Origin: a virus
Length of the DNA: 64,000 nucleotides
Virus record (IMG/VR): IMGVR_UViG_3300005663_000045
Coordinates: 1 to 64,000 of that record
Reading direction: 5' to 3' (one strand)
Shown here: piece after piece, positions 25,664 to 52,066 of the stretch
Position numbering within the stretch: the first letter of the stretch is position 1
Layout: each line of letters opens with the position of its first letter
The notes under the pieces: generated by a model
The model's database searches: none
Told to the model about the DNA's origin: nothing
The model's input: only the letters and a program-made list of their open reading frames with translations
Made by a program: the position numbers and the translations under genes

Positions 25664-25749
25664 GCGTTCTGTGTTCAGGGGATTTACTCCCCTCGTACCT
25701 ACCATGATAATTATCGGCGATAGTATTCGATTAGGCAAGGGAAAAAAGG

Positions 25750-25822
25750 TGCCCCGGCGAGGACTCGAACCCCGAACACGAACTTAGTAGGTACGCGTGA
25801 TTTCCAATTTCACTACCGGGGC
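25750..25822 (-). tRNA. tRNA gene, anticodon reads ACU (Ser-type?), isotype uncertain
   Basis: 73 nt with a perfect 7-bp acceptor (GCCCCGG/CCGGGGC), 4-bp D-stem (GTGA/TCAC) with GG in the D-loop, T-loop TTCGAGT and discriminator A. The anticodon stem CGTAC/GTTCG has one T-T mismatch; the loop CTACTAA places ACT at 34-36 after T33. The variable arm is only 4 nt, which does not fit a normal serine tRNA. CCA is not encoded; CCTTTTTT follows. Probably a phage-carried, partly degenerate tRNA. Confidence 0.75.
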
Positions 25823-25991: not shown

Positions 25992-27011
25992 TTAGATCGT
26001 TGCCAGGGCTTGCCTGCCCCCATGCTCTACTGTGAACTGGGCGTAGAACCGCTCTGTCGTCTGAATAGATGAGTGGCGGAGAATCCGCGAGACATCCTCT
26101 ATCCTTCCCCCCTCCTGGAGAATGAGAGACGCGATCGTATGCCTGAATATGTGCGTGAGGATCCCCTTGCGGGCGAACTTCGGGAACTGCGGGGCGAGCT
26201 GCCTGAAATACTTGTTCCAGTTTCCGCGGGCGCGCGGGCGGAACACGAACTCATCATCTTCTTTGGGTAGCCCTTTGAGTACTCCAACGAGTTCTGGGTG
26301 CATGGGGATAGATTTGTAGCCTCCCTTCACCTTGGTGGCGCGGACACGAATGGTCGGCTGGTTGCCAAAGCGAAGGTCGCTCCAGCGAAGCCGTTCTAGT
26401 TCTCCGAGGCGCAATCCTGTATAGCTGAGGACAAGTACCGGGCACAAGTTTCCTTTTCTCGCAAAATTTCTTACCTCCTCCAACTCTTTGCGTGTCAGGT
26501 GGATGATCTCCTTGTCCTCGATTTTGGGCCGCTCGGTTTCCAGAATCGGGTTACTGGACACTTGGTGTGATCGTACAAGCCAGGAGAAAAATCTTCCCAG
26601 GTGAGCGTGTTCGGTAACGGCGGCCGCTGGTGAGAGGCCGGAATCCAAGCGGTGATTCAGGTAAACTTCTATCTTCGCGGCGGTTATTTCGTCAGGCGTC
26701 TTGATGTCGTGCATCTTCACAAACGCACGAATCGTGGTTAATTTGAAGGCGAGATAGTTCGGTTGGTTTCGGTGTTTCTCATGGGCCCCAAACTGCTCTA
26801 ACAAGCGATCTATTGGCTCGTTCGAGCCGTTGCCGTAGACTGCCTCAAGGATTTGTTGCGCCCGATATCCCGCCTCTGTTTTGGTGCCGCAGTGGAGGCT
26901 GATCCGCTGCTGTCTTTTGCTCGGGGTCGGGTGGGAATACCAAAAGATGTCACCCCTTTTGTAGATGGTTCCCTTCTTGACCCACCGCCTGTACCACGCC
27001 GTCTTATTCAT
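25992..27011 (-). CDS. int: Tyrosine recombinase / phage integrase
   Basis: 339 aa. An N-terminal arm-binding-like basic region and a SAM-like core-binding domain (~65-155) precede the catalytic domain. Catalytic residues are visible: R201 (TGLRLGELERLRW), K227 or K229, H287 and R290 (HIFRHT), H313 (LRHSS) and Y323. It integrates and, with an excisionase, excises the phage. It is transcribed away from the repressor. Neighbouring tRNA and palindrome at 25.58-25.82 kb make that side a candidate attP. Confidence 0.93.
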   Translation of the reverse strand: MNKTAWYRRWVKKGTIYKRGDIFWYSHPTPSKRQQRISLHCGTKTEAGYRAQQILEAVYGNGSNEPIDRLLEQFGAHEKHRNQPNYLAFKLTTIRAFVKMHDIKTPDEITAAKIEVYLNHRLDSGLSPAAAVTEHAHLGRFFSWLVRSHQVSSNPILETERPKIEDKEIIHLTRKELEEVRNFARKGNLCPVLVLSYTGLRLGELERLRWSDLRFGNQPTIRVRATKVKGGYKSIPMHPELVGVLKGLPKEDDEFVFRPRARGNWNKYFRQLAPQFPKFARKGILTHIFRHTIASLILQEGGRIEDVSRILRHSSIQTTERFYAQFTVEHGGRQALATI

Positions 27012-28451: not shown

Positions 28452-28609
28452 TGTAAGGAGCTAACAAGCAATGACTGGCACGCTAGCCAAATCAGTTCTC
28501 TGTAGAAGCGAAAGCCGGGACGAACCTGCGGGCCGGGCCGGTTTCTACTATGGAGGGTCCGAAGGCGAGGCTAGCGTGCCGATAGCTGACGGGCCCTCCT
28601 TCTTTTTTG
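28452..28609 (+). ncRNA. Structured early leader with intrinsic terminator (attenuator-like)
   Basis: GGCACGCTAGCC (28477-28488) is perfectly complementary to 28569-28580. GTAGAA (28502-28507) pairs with TTCTAC (28543-28548). A 9-bp stem GGAGGGTCC (28552-28560) with GGGCCCTCC (28591-28599), one G-U, is followed by TTCTTTTTT, an intrinsic terminator. The 3' half of the 12-bp helix lies in the loop of the terminator hairpin, so the two either form a pseudoknot or compete. This is the design of an attenuator or a put-like antitermination RNA. An ATG at 28471 after TAAGGAG could encode a leader peptide. Confidence 0.6.
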
Positions 28610-28744
28610 ATGGGTCGAGCATGGACGGGACGAGAACGCAAGGATGCGTGGGGGCGGTCAATAATCACTCCTATCCTCTCTTTGGCCGCCTTGCCGGAAC
28701 AACCCCTCCTCCATTAACGACAAGATATTCTAGCAGGGGAGCGA

Positions 28745-28945
28745 ATGATGTCCAAGGAAAAACCAAAGGAAAAGATGCTGATGAACCAGAAGGAGGCCGT
28801 CGCCTTCTTGGGCATAGGGCGGACGGAGTTTTGGGAGGGCATCTATCCAATATTCAGGGACAAGAAACTGTGGCCGCCCATGTTCAAGCGGAAATACTAT
28901 CCTCGCGATGTTCTCTTGGAGGTCATTCGCGGGGAGTGGAACTGA
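28745..28945 (+). CDS. Excisionase / MerR-like HTH protein
   Basis: 66 aa; ATGATG after GGGGAG. The core MNQKEAVAFLGIGRTEFWEG ... YYPRDVLLEVI is a winged-helix helix-turn-helix of the excisionase/MerR type, ending in a short positively charged then acidic tail. First gene of the early operon, next to integrase and repressor, so a recombination directionality factor is likely. The larger overlapping open frame at 28471-29508 is regarded as chance. Confidence 0.72.
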   Translation: MMSKEKPKEKMLMNQKEAVAFLGIGRTEFWEGIYPIFRDKKLWPPMFKRKYYPRDVLLEVIRGEWN

Positions 28946-28980
28946 CGAGACTCCTATCTGTAGATGCAACGGTGAAGGGT

Positions 28981-29015
28981 GCGCCCCTGCTTTGTGGCGG
29001 GGGCGCATTGTTTTT
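28981..29015 (+). terminator. Second early terminator
   Basis: GCGCCCC (28981-28987) pairs with GGGGCGC (29000-29006), then ATTGTTTTT. It lies between the excisionase-like gene and the zinc protein, so the rest of the early operon needs readthrough or antitermination. Confidence 0.75.
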
Positions 29016-29020
29016 CTCTG

Positions 29021-29353
29021 ATGGGCGAAACGATGGAACGAAACGCACGGACGCGGAAGTCCATTCGGGAATACTTGAAGATCGAGACTGCTCCTTTTTG
29101 TTCGGCTTGCGGGCGAGAAGTGGAAGCCTGTTCCCGGAGCAGCAAGGCCGTCGTCTGCTTTCGGTGCACGGCGATTGCAGTCTCCACCCCGAGGAAGCCG
29201 GTCACCAATACCCGGAAGTGTCCCGACTGCGAAGGCCCCCTCGGTCCTCGATGCCGGTTTTGCCCGGAATGCGCTACAAAACGCCGCCGAACTGCCCAAA
29301 GAAGGGCGACACAAAGAAATCGAACTACGCTTTCTGGTGCTGTCAACAGTTAA
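29021..29353 (+). CDS. Double zinc-ribbon basic protein; ends inside repeat element A
   Basis: About 110 aa from the ATG at 29021 (29033 and GTG 28979 are alternatives; no clear RBS). Two CxxC pairs form one ribbon (CSACG ... CFRC) and a second ribbon follows (CPDCEG ... CPEC), then an Arg-rich tail. Short, Arg-rich and directly after a terminator, it is a candidate RNA-binding antiterminator, by position only. Its last codons (AVNS, stop) are part of the repeat that recurs at 57.4 kb. Confidence 0.6.
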   Translation: MGETMERNARTRKSIREYLKIETAPFCSACGREVEACSRSSKAVVCFRCTAIAVSTPRKPVTNTRKCPDCEGPLGPRCRFCPECATKRRRTAQRRATQRNRTTLSGAVNS

Positions 29354-29451
29354 GCGGTTTTGACATGCAGCAAACCCCTATAAACAGGCTTGCCTATCTT
29401 AACACAAACACAAGGCCGACCCGTAGGGCCTCGGCGCAGTTAACTGTTGAC
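29342..29451. repeat. Repeat element copy A with 12-bp inverted ends
   Basis: GTCAACAGTTAA (29342-29353) and TTAACTGTTGAC (29440-29451) are perfect inverted ends. Between them, 29372-29404 matches copy B (57404-57436) at 29 of 33 positions (AAACCCCT..AAACAGGCTT.CCTAT.TTAACA). The spacing of ends and core is nearly the same in both copies, and in both the left end supplies the stop codon of the preceding gene. See copy B at 57375. Confidence 0.8.
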
Positions 29452-29507
29452 AAGGCGATCCTGGGGCATCCTGGCGCGTTTGTCAACCAACGAGAGGCGA
29501 GGATCTG

Positions 29508-29714
29508 ATGCTAACTAGACAAGAGTACAAAATTCTCCGGCTCGTCCTTTTTGGGTACGAACAACAGGAAGTCGCTAAGCGCCTAAGTCTCAACACGGCC
29601 ACTGTAAGCCGGAGTCTTGATTCGGTGGAGAGGAAGAATCCGCTCTTGGGGTGTGCTTTAGGGGTAATCAAGAAAGTACACCATCAACAACAATTAGCGG
29701 AGGCCGTCGCATGA
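29508..29714 (+). CDS. LuxR/sigma-region-4-like HTH protein
   Basis: 68 aa. LTRQEYKILRLVLFGYEQQEVAKRLSLNTATVSRSL is a classic four-helix HTH (GerE or sigma70 region 4 type) with almost nothing else attached. It is the first gene right of repeat A and is ATGA-coupled to the next gene. A small transcription regulator of the early operon is likely. RBS GAGGCGAGGATCTG. Confidence 0.75.
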   Translation: MLTRQEYKILRLVLFGYEQQEVAKRLSLNTATVSRSLDSVERKNPLLGCALGVIKKVHHQQQLAEAVA

Positions 29715-34366: not shown

Positions 34367-34600
34367 ATGGCGAAAGCAAAGACAGTACCAACGAAACCGG
34401 AGTGGGCAGAGGCAGCAGCAGCATTAAAGGAAGCTGTCAAAGAAAAGGAAATAGACGCAGAAGCGGAATGGGTACTTTGTGGAAGTACAACCATTCGTGT
34501 TACTGATGGGTATCTTGAAATTTGCGATACGCTAACTGGTGAAGAATGCCGCGAACTCCGCGACATACTCAACTCCATGTATCCCAAGGATAAGGACTGA
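34367..34600 (+). CDS. Acidic hypothetical protein (77 aa)
   Basis: ATG at 34367 after GAGGACTGAACCA. A Lys/Glu-rich helical N-terminus is followed by a beta hairpin-like segment (STTIRVTDGYLEICD) and an acidic helix. No family recognised. Confidence 0.55.
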   Translation: MAKAKTVPTKPEWAEAAAALKEAVKEKEIDAEAEWVLCGSTTIRVTDGYLEICDTLTGEECRELRDILNSMYPKDKD

Positions 34601-34604
34601 AACG

Positions 34605-34814
34605 ATGAAAAAAATTACAGTAGTAAAAGCCAATGTTGCAAAACCAGTTCTTAAGATTAAGGCACTTACTGTCTATGAGATCTACGAGGAAAGTACTGGA
34701 GATTGGTTCTGCTATGGGCAGGAATACTCTTTGGCAAAGGCAAGGAGCGTAGCTAAGAGACTTGATGGCCCTACTGTTATTGTCAGTGCACATCTTCCAG
34801 CAGTAGAGATGTAA
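34605..34814 (+). CDS. Small beta-rich protein, paralogue of the 36435 gene (69 aa)
   Basis: KITVVKANVAKPV opens the protein and an aromatic centre (EIYEESTGDWFCYGQEYS) precedes a helix and a C-terminal strand. The protein at 36435 has the same layout (KVTVVKSAGRP ... WSFDNDYTSLKGA), so they are probably paralogues. The large RNA candidate lies between them. Confidence 0.55.
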   Translation: MKKITVVKANVAKPVLKIKALTVYEIYEESTGDWFCYGQEYSLAKARSVAKRLDGPTVIVSAHLPAVEM

Positions 34815-34898
34815 CCAACACCCCAGCCCCCGCTGATGGTGGGCCTGTCTGCCTGTTCGGTAGGCTGAAGCTATTGAGTATAACTGAATATGGATACA

Positions 34899-35653
34899 TG
34901 CTGGCGGGCGGCTCTAACTGGCATAGCTACCAGGTATCCGGGTTGGCGCGAACCGGCAGGCAGTGTCCGCTGGCCGTCAGTGCCCAGCACTGCTGCTGAC
35001 CCCGCCGGCATTGATACAAGGACTCGTCTGCGGCGTGGTGTGAACACGCTCGAAGTGGGACAGGCCCAATACAGTGTTCGGTTCCCGCTCCGACGCTTGG
35101 GCATAGCAGGCAGCGGGTAATGGCCAATCCTGCCGGGCGAGTCCTTTTGAATGAATGGCCTCCTTATCCCGCGAAGTTCCAGCAATGCGGGCTCTGGTGG
35201 AAATAGGGAATGGCTGAAGGCAGCACAACCAACCCGCATGGGATGTTGTTCTGATTGTGGCGATAGCCATAACCAACTTCAGCATTCGGAGGCCCCGGTA
35301 CTACTGGCGGTGCTTTGTTGGGAATGCCCGGCGAGGAAGTAGCTACCACGCCAGTATAGGGTACGGGTGAGTAGGAATCTGACGCCGTGCGCAACGGTTG
35401 AACGAAAGCCCGTACCCGAACGATTATTTCTCCCCGTGCTGCATAGCCGTCATCGAATGGGCGGAACCTCGGGCCATTGGCGGTAACGCGCGATTTAGTA
35501 CCTGGTCCGTCGCGCCGGGTGGGTGAAGCCCGGCCACGGGGAGCATATGCGGCGGTGGGCGACGAGCGAAAAGCCCTCTAGCTAGTTAGGCCGACTACTG
35601 GTTGGAGTCAGGAGTAACGTGCCTGAATGTAAGGTGCAAATCCTTCCCGTCGC
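34899..35653 (+). ncRNA. Candidate giant structured RNA (~755 nt, seven domains)
   Basis: No ORF in this interval has credible sequence or a ribosome site, but complementary segments tile it in order without crossing. Domain closing helices: 34899-34908/35001-35010 (10 bp, one G-U); 35018-35026/35138-35146 (9 bp); 35157-35163/35288-35294 (7 bp); 35302-35309/35349-35356 (8 bp); 35359-35367/35409-35417 (9 bp); 35430-35438/35535-35543 (9 bp); 35559-35564/35648-35653 (6 bp). Inner helices include 35084-35089/35112-35117, 35213-35219/35277-35283 and 35514-35519/35529-35534. The last domain holds a T-arm-like hairpin (AAGG, 7-nt loop, CCTT). Size, phage context and tRNA-like features recall GOLLD or ROOL RNAs. 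Plus strand is inferred from neighbours. Confidence 0.72.
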
Positions 35654-35689
35654 AATGAGTTTGGAACACTAACTTTAAGGAGATGTGAA

Positions 35690-36322
35690 ATGAACAAGGA
35701 TTTGACAGACATTACATTGGTTGTGGACCGAAGTGGGTCTATGCAGTCCTGTTTAACTGAAGCACAAGGCGGGATCAATGCTTTCATTTCAGAGCAGAAA
35801 GAGGTTCCAGGCGAAGCGTTGCTGACCATTCTGGAATTCGATACCGCCTACGATTTCGTTTGTAGTGGGACGCCCATCAAGGATACTCCCGAATACAAGC
35901 TCGTTCCTCGTGGTATGACTGCGCTTCTAGATGCGGTGGGTCGGGCAATCAATGAGACTGGAGAACGGCTTGGCAGAATGGACGACGAATCCCGTCCCGG
36001 GCTGGTCGTCATAGCAATCATCACAGACGGTCACGAGAATGCCAGCCATGAATTCACAAAGCAGCAAGTCAAGGTAATGGTGGATCGGCAAACCAACGAT
36101 TACCAGTGGAAGTTTGTATTCCTTGGCGCAGATGCGGGAGCGTTTGATGAAGCTGCTTCAATCGGAATCCATGCTGGAAGCACTGTAATGTATGCTCCAG
36201 ACAAGAGCGATAAAGTATACGCTGCAACCTCTGCGAATGTCTCTATGGCCCGATGCGATATGGCGGCTGGAAGAACGGTGTGTATGGATTGGAGCGACGA
36301 GCAACGAGCAGAAGTTAAGTAA
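35690..36322 (+). CDS. vWA-domain protein (MIDAS metal site)
   Basis: 210 aa, close to one complete vWA domain. MIDAS residues are present: D13xS15xS17 (LVVDRSGSM), a Thr in RGMTALLDA, and the Asp of IAIITDGHEN. A good RBS (AAGGAG) lies 8 bases before the ATG. vWA domains bind protein ligands through a metal. It begins 37 bases after the large RNA candidate, so an RNA-protein pair is possible, recalling Ro60-type vWA proteins with Y RNAs, although no TROVE domain is present. Confidence 0.85.
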   Translation: MNKDLTDITLVVDRSGSMQSCLTEAQGGINAFISEQKEVPGEALLTILEFDTAYDFVCSGTPIKDTPEYKLVPRGMTALLDAVGRAINETGERLGRMDDESRPGLVVIAIITDGHENASHEFTKQQVKVMVDRQTNDYQWKFVFLGADAGAFDEAASIGIHAGSTVMYAPDKSDKVYAATSANVSMARCDMAAGRTVCMDWSDEQRAEVK

Positions 36323-43959: not shown

Positions 43960-44958
43960 ATGGCGAAGTCCCCGGCATTCCAGATGTATCCGAAAGACTG
44001 GCTGAGCGACCACCGGGTCAAGCGCCTCTCCTGGGCCGCCAAGGGCTATTACGCCGAACTCCTGATGTTGATGTGGGCCGAAGGGACCGATTCCCTCCCG
44101 GATGACGATGCACAAATTGCGAAAATTTTGGGTGTTAGACTCTCTCAATGGGGTGCAATTAAATCCCAAATAATGTACCCTACCGACCCTATGTTCTTGG
44201 CAGAAAACGGGCGCTTGGTATCCGAGCGGTTGCGCGCCGAACGCCTGAAGCAGCAAGAGTCTAGGACGAAACGACAGAACGCCGCAGCCAAGCGATGGGG
44301 TAAGCAAAGCATATGCAATGCAGATGCAAAGCAATGCACTGCTTCTTCTACTGCTTCTGCTACTGCATTAACACCCTCTATATCTCCCTCTTTGAATGAA
44401 GCCAGCGACCCAGACGATGCTCGGTACGGCGGCCCCGTGCTGCCTCAGTTCAACGACGGGCGAGACCTCACCCCCCAGGGACGGAGAGCCTGGGAACTCC
44501 TGGAGCCCCTCAGAGAGAAGGCAGAGGCGTTCCCACCACCGGGTGATAAGCATTTGAACCGGCTTGGTGCGGAGACCGAGCCTGCCGCCCTCGAAAAGAT
44601 GACTGTTGGGGATCTGAACGAAGCCGCACGCGACTACCAGAAGCGTTACGGGAAGGACACGACCGCCAAGTGGGGGATTGGTTATCTCATATCAATCTTG
44701 AACCGGAATTGGACCATCAGCCGCGAGCAAGACAAAAAACAGGAAGCTCGCGATGCGGCCAAGAACAAGCTGGCCGTCGACTTGGCCTCGAAGCAAAAAA
44801 GCGAGGACGAGTATAAGCGCATGAAGCGGGAGTGGAAGAAGCTCTCAGTCTCTGAGCAGCTTGGCGTGATGGAAAACTATAAACGTGAATACAACTTCAA
44901 GACTGCCCCCGAATCCGTGGTGATTCAGTGGTGGTGGAACAAGCAACAGGGAGAGTGA
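43960..44958 (+). CDS. DUF1376 replication-initiation protein
   Basis: 332 aa. The N-terminal PAFQMYPKDWLSDHRVKRL ... GYYAELLMLMW is the DUF1376 winged-helix signature found in phage replication (O-like) proteins. A Ser/Thr-rich linker follows; the C-terminal part is charged and helical and ends in IQWWWNKQQGE. The linker DNA near 44310-44350 has repeated ATGCAATGCA-type stretches, a possible origin. It is followed directly by the radical SAM gene. Confidence 0.75.
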   Translation: MAKSPAFQMYPKDWLSDHRVKRLSWAAKGYYAELLMLMWAEGTDSLPDDDAQIAKILGVRLSQWGAIKSQIMYPTDPMFLAENGRLVSERLRAERLKQQESRTKRQNAAAKRWGKQSICNADAKQCTASSTASATALTPSISPSLNEASDPDDARYGGPVLPQFNDGRDLTPQGRRAWELLEPLREKAEAFPPPGDKHLNRLGAETEPAALEKMTVGDLNEAARDYQKRYGKDTTAKWGIGYLISILNRNWTISREQDKKQEARDAAKNKLAVDLASKQKSEDEYKRMKREWKKLSVSEQLGVMENYKREYNFKTAPESVVIQWWWNKQQGE

Positions 44959-44959
44959 G

Positions 44960-45958
44960 ATGAAAGCAATAGGCACGAACATTGTCAAGAAAATCTCGGT
45001 TCCCACTGGCGATATTCTCATCATTAAAGGGTCTGTCGGATTGTTGGAAATGGTGTCACTTGGGGACTACGGCAAAGAGGTAAACCTAAAATGCGACGCG
45101 ATGGACCTCAAGCGAGAACCCGCCCCGGTGAAGCATACAAAGTTGCTCCCATTGACGGAGAAATGGGTTTTAACAATATCGACACAATACGGCTGTTCGA
45201 TGAATTGTACGTTCTGTGATGTACCACAGGTGGGGCCGGGTAGAAATGCGTCGCGTAACGACATGACCAAACAGCTCCTTGCTGGCCTATCAATCCATCC
45301 CGAAATTGAGTTTACACGAAGGCTTAATGTGCATTTTGCCAGGATGGGTGAACCGACGTGGAATCCCGAAGTGTTGGAAACGGCTCGATGGCTCAAGACA
45401 CACATTGACCCCGAGTACGCAGTGCATCCGGTGGTATCCACGATGATGCCGCGTCATAACGAATGGCTGAGGACGTTCATTCACACTTGGATGCGGATTA
45501 AAAATCGCCTGTATCGTGGCAATGCGGGATTGCAGATAACCGTGAACTCCACAAGTCCGGCAGAACGGGAAGCAATATTCAATGGTAACGCCCTCGACTT
45601 GTGGGGTATCGCAAAGGTTTTAGATGGGGTAATTCCAAGCGGCAGGAAGATCACACTGAACTTTGCTGTAGCAGGCTTCGTTGTAGAACCGGATGAGATC
45701 AAGCGATATTTCGATCCCGACTATTATATTATCAAACTGACGCCAATGCACAAGACCCAAGCGGCAGAAAGTGGCGGGCTGAAGACCAGCGGAGACTATA
45801 CAACCTACCAGCCGTACCAAGAACTAGAACAGGAATTCATAGGCGCAGGGTATGATGTGCTAGTGTTCATCGCAAGTGCCGCAGAAGATGATAGCCGGAT
45901 TACTTGTGGGAATGCAATCCTATCGCACAAGGGGGCAAGCCAAGGAGAACCCCAATGA
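44960..45958 (+). CDS. Radical SAM protein, RlmN/Cfr-like
   Basis: 332 aa. Iron-sulfur motif CX3CX2C at C79, C83, C86 (GCSMNCTFCDVP). MGEPTWNPE, QITVNSTSP and a late TCGNAIL (C316) align in order with RlmN/Cfr blocks, including the C-terminal CG cysteine that becomes methylated in those enzymes. The other mechanistic cysteine of RlmN, 7 residues before the cluster, is Thr72 here. So it may modify RNA by a different chemistry or another substrate. ATGA-coupled to the next gene. Confidence 0.75.
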   Translation: MKAIGTNIVKKISVPTGDILIIKGSVGLLEMVSLGDYGKEVNLKCDAMDLKREPAPVKHTKLLPLTEKWVLTISTQYGCSMNCTFCDVPQVGPGRNASRNDMTKQLLAGLSIHPEIEFTRRLNVHFARMGEPTWNPEVLETARWLKTHIDPEYAVHPVVSTMMPRHNEWLRTFIHTWMRIKNRLYRGNAGLQITVNSTSPAEREAIFNGNALDLWGIAKVLDGVIPSGRKITLNFAVAGFVVEPDEIKRYFDPDYYIIKLTPMHKTQAAESGGLKTSGDYTTYQPYQELEQEFIGAGYDVLVFIASAAEDDSRITCGNAILSHKGASQGEPQ

Positions 45959-51191: not shown

Positions 51192-51293
51192 ATGACGCGC
51201 GAAGAACCTACAGGCCGGAGTTTCAAGGACGCTCTCATTCGCCTTGTGATAGACGAATGCCCAACTGCTGGCCGTGATGGGAGAATGAGATGA
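51192..51293 (+). CDS. 33-aa peptide upstream of the nucleotidyltransferase
   Basis: ATG two bases after the YopX stop; stop in ATGA overlap with the next gene. MTREEPTGRSFKDALIRLVI is helical. No known function. Confidence 0.5.
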   Translation: MTREEPTGRSFKDALIRLVIDECPTAGRDGRMR

Positions 51294-52066
51294 TACCCAA
51301 GCCGATATATGACAAGCACCAATCCCTCTCCGACTGGTCGATACTCCTGGGCTATCGCGGGTCCATCGCGCATGGGATGTACGTTCCCAACACCGACCCG
51401 AACTCCATCGACGACAAGGACGTGATGGGGATCGTCGTCCCACCAAGGGACTATTACTACGGGCTCAAGACCTTCGGATCCAAAGGGACGAAGGAGATCA
51501 CGGACGGTGAATGGGATATCGTCCTGTTCGAGTTGACCAAAGCTGTTCGATTGCTCGCCAAGGGCAACCCCAATATACTACAGATCCTCTGGCTGAAGGA
51601 AAACTACTACATCAAGATCACCCCTGCGGGTCAGTTGCTGATAGACAACCGCGAACTGTTCGTCGGCAAGCACGTGTACCACAGCTTTGTCGGCTACGCC
51701 CACGGCCAGCTTCACAAGATGACGCACTGCCCGGGCAGGGGGTATATGGGTGCCAAGAGAAAAAGACTCGTCGAGAAGTTCGGCTACGACACCAAGAACG
51801 CCTCCCACTTAGTGCGCCTACTCCGTTTGGGGATTGAGTTTCTCTGTGATGGGGAGTTGCAGGTGGAGCGCCCTGATGCACAGGAACTTCTTGCGATCAA
51901 GCGAGGGGAATGGCCTTTGGAGAAGATCGAGGCGGAGGCTGCGAGGCTGTTTGAGGTCGCACAAGAGGCGCTTACCCATTCCCCGCTCCCGCCGAAACCG
52001 GAAACAGAGAAGATAAACGCGCTGTGCGTGGACATTGCTGAGTGCTGGCTGTCAGATAAGGAGTAG
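51290..52066 (+). CDS. Predicted nucleotidyltransferase (COG3541-like)
   Basis: 258 aa. GYRGSIAHGMY ... DDKDVMGIVVPP carries the GS ... DxD nucleotidyltransferase motif; the C-terminal half is helical with a basic GRGYMGAKRKRLVEKFGYDTKNASH block. Resembles a predicted nucleotidyltransferase family found in bacteria and phages. May modify RNA ends or a small molecule; note the tRNA-like RNA ~280 bases downstream. Confidence 0.72.
   Translation: MIPKPIYDKHQSLSDWSILLGYRGSIAHGMYVPNTDPNSIDDKDVMGIVVPPRDYYYGLKTFGSKGTKEITDGEWDIVLFELTKAVRLLAKGNPNILQILWLKENYYIKITPAGQLLIDNRELFVGKHVYHSFVGYAHGQLHKMTHCPGRGYMGAKRKRLVEKFGYDTKNASHLVRLLRLGIEFLCDGELQVERPDAQELLAIKRGEWPLEKIEAEAARLFEVAQEALTHSPLPPKPETEKINALCVDIAECWLSDKE

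Follow-up and report, generated by a model that had tools for sequence, protein, structure and literature searches.

Genomic setting

The DNA analysed (the window) comprises the first 64,000 nucleotides of a 68,631-base (68.6 kb) IMG/VR virus record. The record carries an integrase, and the phage is a little-known, temperate one; no close kin were found in the collections searched, TerL leads only to kin of at most 30% identity, and DUF3799 leads to none. Within a tightly packed gene region, an interval on the + strand is bordered by the stop of a 69-aa open reading frame at 34814 and the start of a vWA-domain gene at 35690. The upstream reading frame (34605-34814, +) has gene-like codon usage. 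The downstream gene (35690-36322, +), which has an AAGGAG ribosome-binding site, encodes a 210-aa protein with a DRSGSM motif and a weak match to Pfam VWA; relatives of this protein are present in 215 phage records.

A previous, sequence-only reading described positions 34899-35653 as gene-free, and codon usage bears this out. Open reading frames inside the interval have codon log-odds of -0.16 to +0.07, compared with +0.08 to +0.23 for most phage genes, and none of them matches those genes in codon usage. The GC content is 0.55-0.58, against about 0.47-0.54 in the surrounding DNA. As no promoter or terminator match was found on the + strand between 34810 and 35690, an RNA from this interval probably belongs to a longer transcript.

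Structure of the interval

Does the interval fold better than chance would allow? The chain-of-helices score of 34890-35660 is 54, compared with 36.2 +/- 6.5 for 300 dinucleotide shuffles, only one of which scored as high; these and the other shuffle figures are somewhat optimistic, as the tests were done after the claim had been made. The view that so regular a tiling by helices exceeds chance thus holds, with 299 of 300 shuffles scoring lower. Local folding with pair spans of up to 150 gives z = -3.81 on the + strand (none of 60 shuffles was as good) and -0.85 on the - strand; the background from 21 subwindows per strand has a mean of about -0.9 and a standard deviation of 1.4-1.7. The interval ranks first among 159 phage subwindows by summed base pairs; when long helices are weighted, subwindows 29201 and 28801 outrank it, and subwindows 401 and 25201 are stronger folding outliers. 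That other parts of the phage are equally unusual in folding counts against reading the interval as one RNA of about 760 nt. With the timing of the tests and these other regions taken into account, a structured + strand RNA at the interval is accepted.

Seven non-crossing closing helices had been listed, and all were found at their positions. Domain 1 (34899-35010, +) is closed by the 10-bp helix UGCUGGCGGG/CCCGCCGGCA and has the weakest fold of the domains (z = -1.0). In domain 2 (35018-35146, +; z = -2.9) the closing helix AAGGACUCG/CGAGUCCUU is lengthened by G-U and other pairs to 13 bp. Domain 3 (35157-35294, +; z = -3.5) is multi-branched and closed by GGCCUCC/GGAGGCC, and domain 4 (35302-35356, +; z = -3.1) by UACUGGCG/CGCCAGUA. 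A large purine-rich internal loop distinguishes domain 5 (35359-35417, +; z = -2.5), with closing helix GGGUACGGG/CCCGUACCC; domain 6 (35430-35543, +; z = -1.7) is closed by CUCCCCGUG/CACGGGGAG. The gaps between these six domains are just 2-12 nt, and each of the seven domains folds better on the + strand than on the - strand. Folded in isolation, domains 1 and 6 do little better than shuffles, which again counts against the single-RNA reading.

Homologues of domains 1-6 were found neither by blastn, nor with DNA patterns drawn from domains 2 and 5, whose matches were judged by their context to be due to chance, nor in 50 whole records of phages that carry the vWA gene. For the loop pattern of domain 5, neither viral nor genome contigs yielded a convincing relative. 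A search linked to the vWA gene (80 loci and the 50 whole records) revealed neither an RNA upstream of that gene nor a DNA match, and a distant blastn against phages and plasmids produced a single lead, the T-arm of domain 7. The covariation test is therefore confined to relatives of domain 7, and the case for a single giant RNA is made by thermodynamics, tiling, the strand bias and the non-coding character of the interval. The idea that domains 1-6 are extra copies of the tRNA-like element was rejected, their scores with covariance model R1 being at most 6.7 bits.

A tRNA-like module

The last domain was mis-bounded in the sequence-only reading: the helix GCGACG/CGUCGC with outer ends 35559/35653 is present, yet a better closing is the 7-bp acceptor GCGGCGG/CCGUCGC (35549-35555/35647-35653, +). 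With this acceptor the free fold reaches -42.5 kcal/mol, 5.7 better than the -36.8 obtained with the former closing, and homology model R1 independently picks the same pairs. Domain 7 is accordingly delimited as 35549-35654 (+), on the basis of the R1 match, constrained folds and the T-arm held in common with a family of phage tRNA-like elements. The predicted cloverleaf has a D-arm (35557-35560/35573-35576, +), a long central arm (35577-35606, +), a variable arm (35608-35612/35622-35626, +) and a T-arm (35631-35634/35642-35645, +) with loop UGCAAAU. When the T-stem is enforced as well, the class-II cloverleaf folds at -40.1 kcal/mol, within 2.4 kcal/mol of the optimum.

Domain 7 resembles class-II tRNAs (tRNA-Leu, RF00005) in its 7-bp acceptor, D-arm, variable arm, T-arm and T-loop motif. 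It differs from them in its long central hairpin, which has no 7-nt anticodon loop, and in a T-stem mismatch (U35630/C35646); there is no encoded CCA, and it is not identified as a tRNA by ARAGORN or by Rfam. Because the central arm is a long hairpin that lacks the 7-nt anticodon loop, the modelled structure should not decode, and domain 7 is most likely a non-decoding element.

R1, a covariance model of the phage tRNA-Leu-like elements described below, matches 35548-35655 with 33.0 bits (E = 5.6e-7), the best match in the window, with all seven acceptor pairs standard and paired at the model position. The runner-up in the window, at 44924-45011, has an E value of 0.061 and lies at a gene junction, and was rejected as a second copy; across the whole record domain 7 is the sole match. 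Scores with R1 are 24-39 bits for genuine tRNA-Leu genes and 50-89 bits for typical members of the phage family, so the 33.0 bits of domain 7 indicate a tRNA-type fold and are not proof of family membership. The sequence comparison thus points to a tRNA-type fold with a T-arm almost the same as in the phage tRNA-Leu-like family, by descent or by convergence, and kinship with that family appears likely. In common are the near-identical T-arm ATGTAAGGTGCAAATCCTT.CC and a 7-bp acceptor followed by GUGG. Among the differences, the Leu-type D-arm GGCGGAAUAGGUAGACGC is absent from domain 7, which has GGGCGACGAGCGAAAAGCCC instead; its T-stem is shorter, and it sits after a large structured RNA.

A family of tRNA-Leu-like elements in phages

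The weak blastn matches to the domain 7 T-arm fall mostly in unannotated gaps of phages of Enterococcus, Leuconostoc, Weissella, Listeria and Liquorilactobacillus, and in one Lactiplantibacillus plasmid. Elements closed by this T-arm start like tRNA-Leu (GUGGCGGAAUAGGUAGACGC) and have no recognisable anticodon arm. The exact T-arm pattern occurs in at least 120 IMG/VR stretches. The members comprise L097-L100, most of L103-L222, L243 and L244 (phages, a plasmid and viral contigs).

In layout, a fixed acceptor, D-arm and T-arm surround a hypervariable interior of 23-168 nt, with a median length of 65. Pairing between this interior and the segment that precedes the T-arm exceeds that in shuffles (p about 1e-9). 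In an alignment of 37 members, 98% of cells pair, eight of 16 pairs have changed on both sides, and covariation is 0.533, against 0.126 for shuffled controls and at most 0.125 for slid partners; the T-arm being fixed by the search pattern, the informative part is the acceptor and D-stem only. Among 108 members found with the model, 15 of 16 pairs have changed on both sides and the score is 0.565 against 0.147, in a set that is fitted to the model and also takes in variants of the T-arm and a small number of true tRNA-Leu genes. Covariation, which the earlier reading had proposed to test in the listed helices, is thus strongly positive for the helices shared by the relatives of domain 7, on which the test was run.

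ARAGORN recognised none of 130 family elements, and in the members scanned with Rfam no family matched at the member's own position. Some members are in tandem (L164:3558-3927, L175:7672-7828), and some carry a D-loop insertion instead of an insertion in the anticodon region only. Scrambled tRNA-Leu-like elements are also found in phages picked solely by their vWA gene (L243, L244, L248 and L249); those at L248:1501-1622 and L249:1501-1612 are tRNA-Leu-like genes with scrambled anticodon regions, the former with an encoded CCA end. Charging with leucine by LeuRS is not favoured, as 49% of members have A at base 73 and 42% have T, and most have no encoded CCA.

No description of the family was found in the literature covered, which takes in few subscription journals and preprints, so its novelty is provisional; from Rfam 15 it is absent where scanned. 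The trail from domain 7 to a common phage tRNA-like family that is missed by ARAGORN and lacking in Rfam is nonetheless the more solid part of this work. Many of the phages that carry it infect Firmicutes or come from rumen-type samples, and among the carriers are the cultured phages Enterococcus EFDG1, a Leuconostoc phage and Weissella PWc.

Comparison with known RNAs

GOLLD is a phage-encoded RNA of about 800 nt with many helices, found near tRNA or tRNA-like elements, and ROOL is a large ornate phage RNA often located by tRNA islands (PMC12286853). Both lie near phage tRNA islands and assemble into RNA cages (PMC12286853). The RNA of the interval is like GOLLD in phage origin, size, number of helices and a tRNA-like element, but the conserved 3' region of GOLLD was not found: the model (RF02032) gave no match at E values up to 5 in the interval and up to 10 in the 68.6 kb record. 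With ROOL the RNA shares large size and a phage origin; the ROOL model (RF03087) has no match in the 68.6 kb record, a weaker negative in that no control genome matched. Rfam covariance models as a whole (GOLLD, ROOL and others) produced no relevant match, at gathering thresholds or at E values up to 5. A large multi-domain structured RNA with a tRNA-like element, as first described, is supported; its kinship to GOLLD and ROOL is not.

Transfer-messenger RNA and bacterial Y RNAs (YrlA) also have tRNA-like domains that do not decode through an anticodon. Neither tmRNA nor Y RNA has a match in 34600-35900, no Ro/TROVE gene was identified near the interval, and the cloverleaf of domain 7 is entire within 106 nt, unlike that of tmRNA.

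Interpretation

In the reading preferred here, with a probability of about 0.5, the phage makes a non-coding RNA of about 760 nt from the + strand, in which six self-closed domains (34899-35543) are followed by the tRNA-like module (35549-35654); the vWA gene comes next. The grounds are the helix tiling (1 in 300), the + strand folding bias, the non-coding sequence, the R1 match, the acceptor and cloverleaf energies and the lack of + strand promoter or terminator matches. Against it, no comparable large RNA before a tRNA-like element was seen in the other phages checked. If this reading holds, giant phage RNAs, of which GOLLD and ROOL make up a short list, would gain a member of distinct architecture that carries its own tRNA-like processing site.

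Is this one RNA, or are there several neighbouring ones? A tRNA-like element that stands free (35549-35654) might adjoin unrelated structured elements, each maturing and acting alone. Every domain is self-closed, no homologue has the seven as a unit, and tRNA-like elements elsewhere are solitary or tandem, all in favour of separate RNAs; against this, domains 1-6 are separated by so few nucleotides, with no + strand terminator or promoter match between them, and R1 matches none of the six. Such an arrangement is rather unlikely.

A function as a long structured 5' leader, which would control in cis how the vWA mRNA is translated or how stable it is, is less probable still. The structured stretch stops about 20 nt short of the vWA ribosome-binding site, and in other phages 28 family elements are found no more than 60 nt upstream of a gene on the same strand. 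However, a leader of 750 nt would be very long, the nearest vWA relatives, in viral contigs, have no such RNA upstream, and tRNA-like elements elsewhere precede many different genes or tRNAs. Most doubtful is GC-rich DNA of an ordinary non-coding kind, or the decayed remains of a former tRNA or of former genes, with helices mostly due to chance: the raised GC content, the weakness of domains 1 and 6 and the absence of detected conservation fit it, but the tiling, the z of -3.8 with its strand bias and the intact acceptor and cloverleaf of domain 7 do not, and 750 nt of empty DNA are seldom kept in compact phage genomes.

If the RNA of about 760 nt is real, what might the module do? RNase P recognises the stack of acceptor and T-arm, and the place of a tRNA-like module, between a structured RNA and a gene, suggests tRNA punctuation. 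The 5' end of the module would be cut by RNase P (35548/35549), and its 3' end would be trimmed in the manner of a tRNA; this processing would release domains 1-6 as an RNA whose 3' end is defined, with the vWA mRNA left behind. More weakly, by analogy with GOLLD and ROOL, the freed domains 1-6 might act as a structural RNA.

In a bolder and tentative form of the proposal, which we hold to be somewhat improbable, domains 1-6 would be the first known giant phage RNA of a new class. At its end would stand an outlier of a phage tRNA-like family, as yet undescribed, with a fixed acceptor/D-arm/T-arm scaffold, a hypervariable payload in the anticodon region and maturation by RNase P. Members of that family would be natural tRNA scaffolds bearing RNA domains that change fast.

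Other sites in the phage

A second candidate structured RNA lies at 28470-28611, with a long-range 13-bp helix at about 28476/28582 and z = -3.9 for 115 nt; an alternative fold is a terminator-like hairpin with a T-run near 28608. The 345-aa open reading frame that overlies it (28471-29508) has no coding signal, and Rfam gave no match for 28470-28611. The segment 401-1171 has no long inverted repeat, yet its folding is unusually good on either strand (z = -5.6 and -5.1).

A perfect 13-bp inverted repeat, TGTCAACAGTTAA/TTAACTGTTGACA, is present at 29341-29353 and 29440-29452, its arms 86 nt apart, and flanks a TTGACA-N17-TATAAA-like stretch (read by eye); the two arms may be a pair of operators where the + strand gene block begins. 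A tRNA-Ser with the unusual anticodon ACT (25748-25822, -) adjoins the integrase gene (25992-27011, -) and may be an attachment site or else a tRNA in decay. Positions 51290-52066 encode an RlaP-type nucleotidyltransferase of the RNA repair pathway (Pfam PF10127, E = 2.8e-20).
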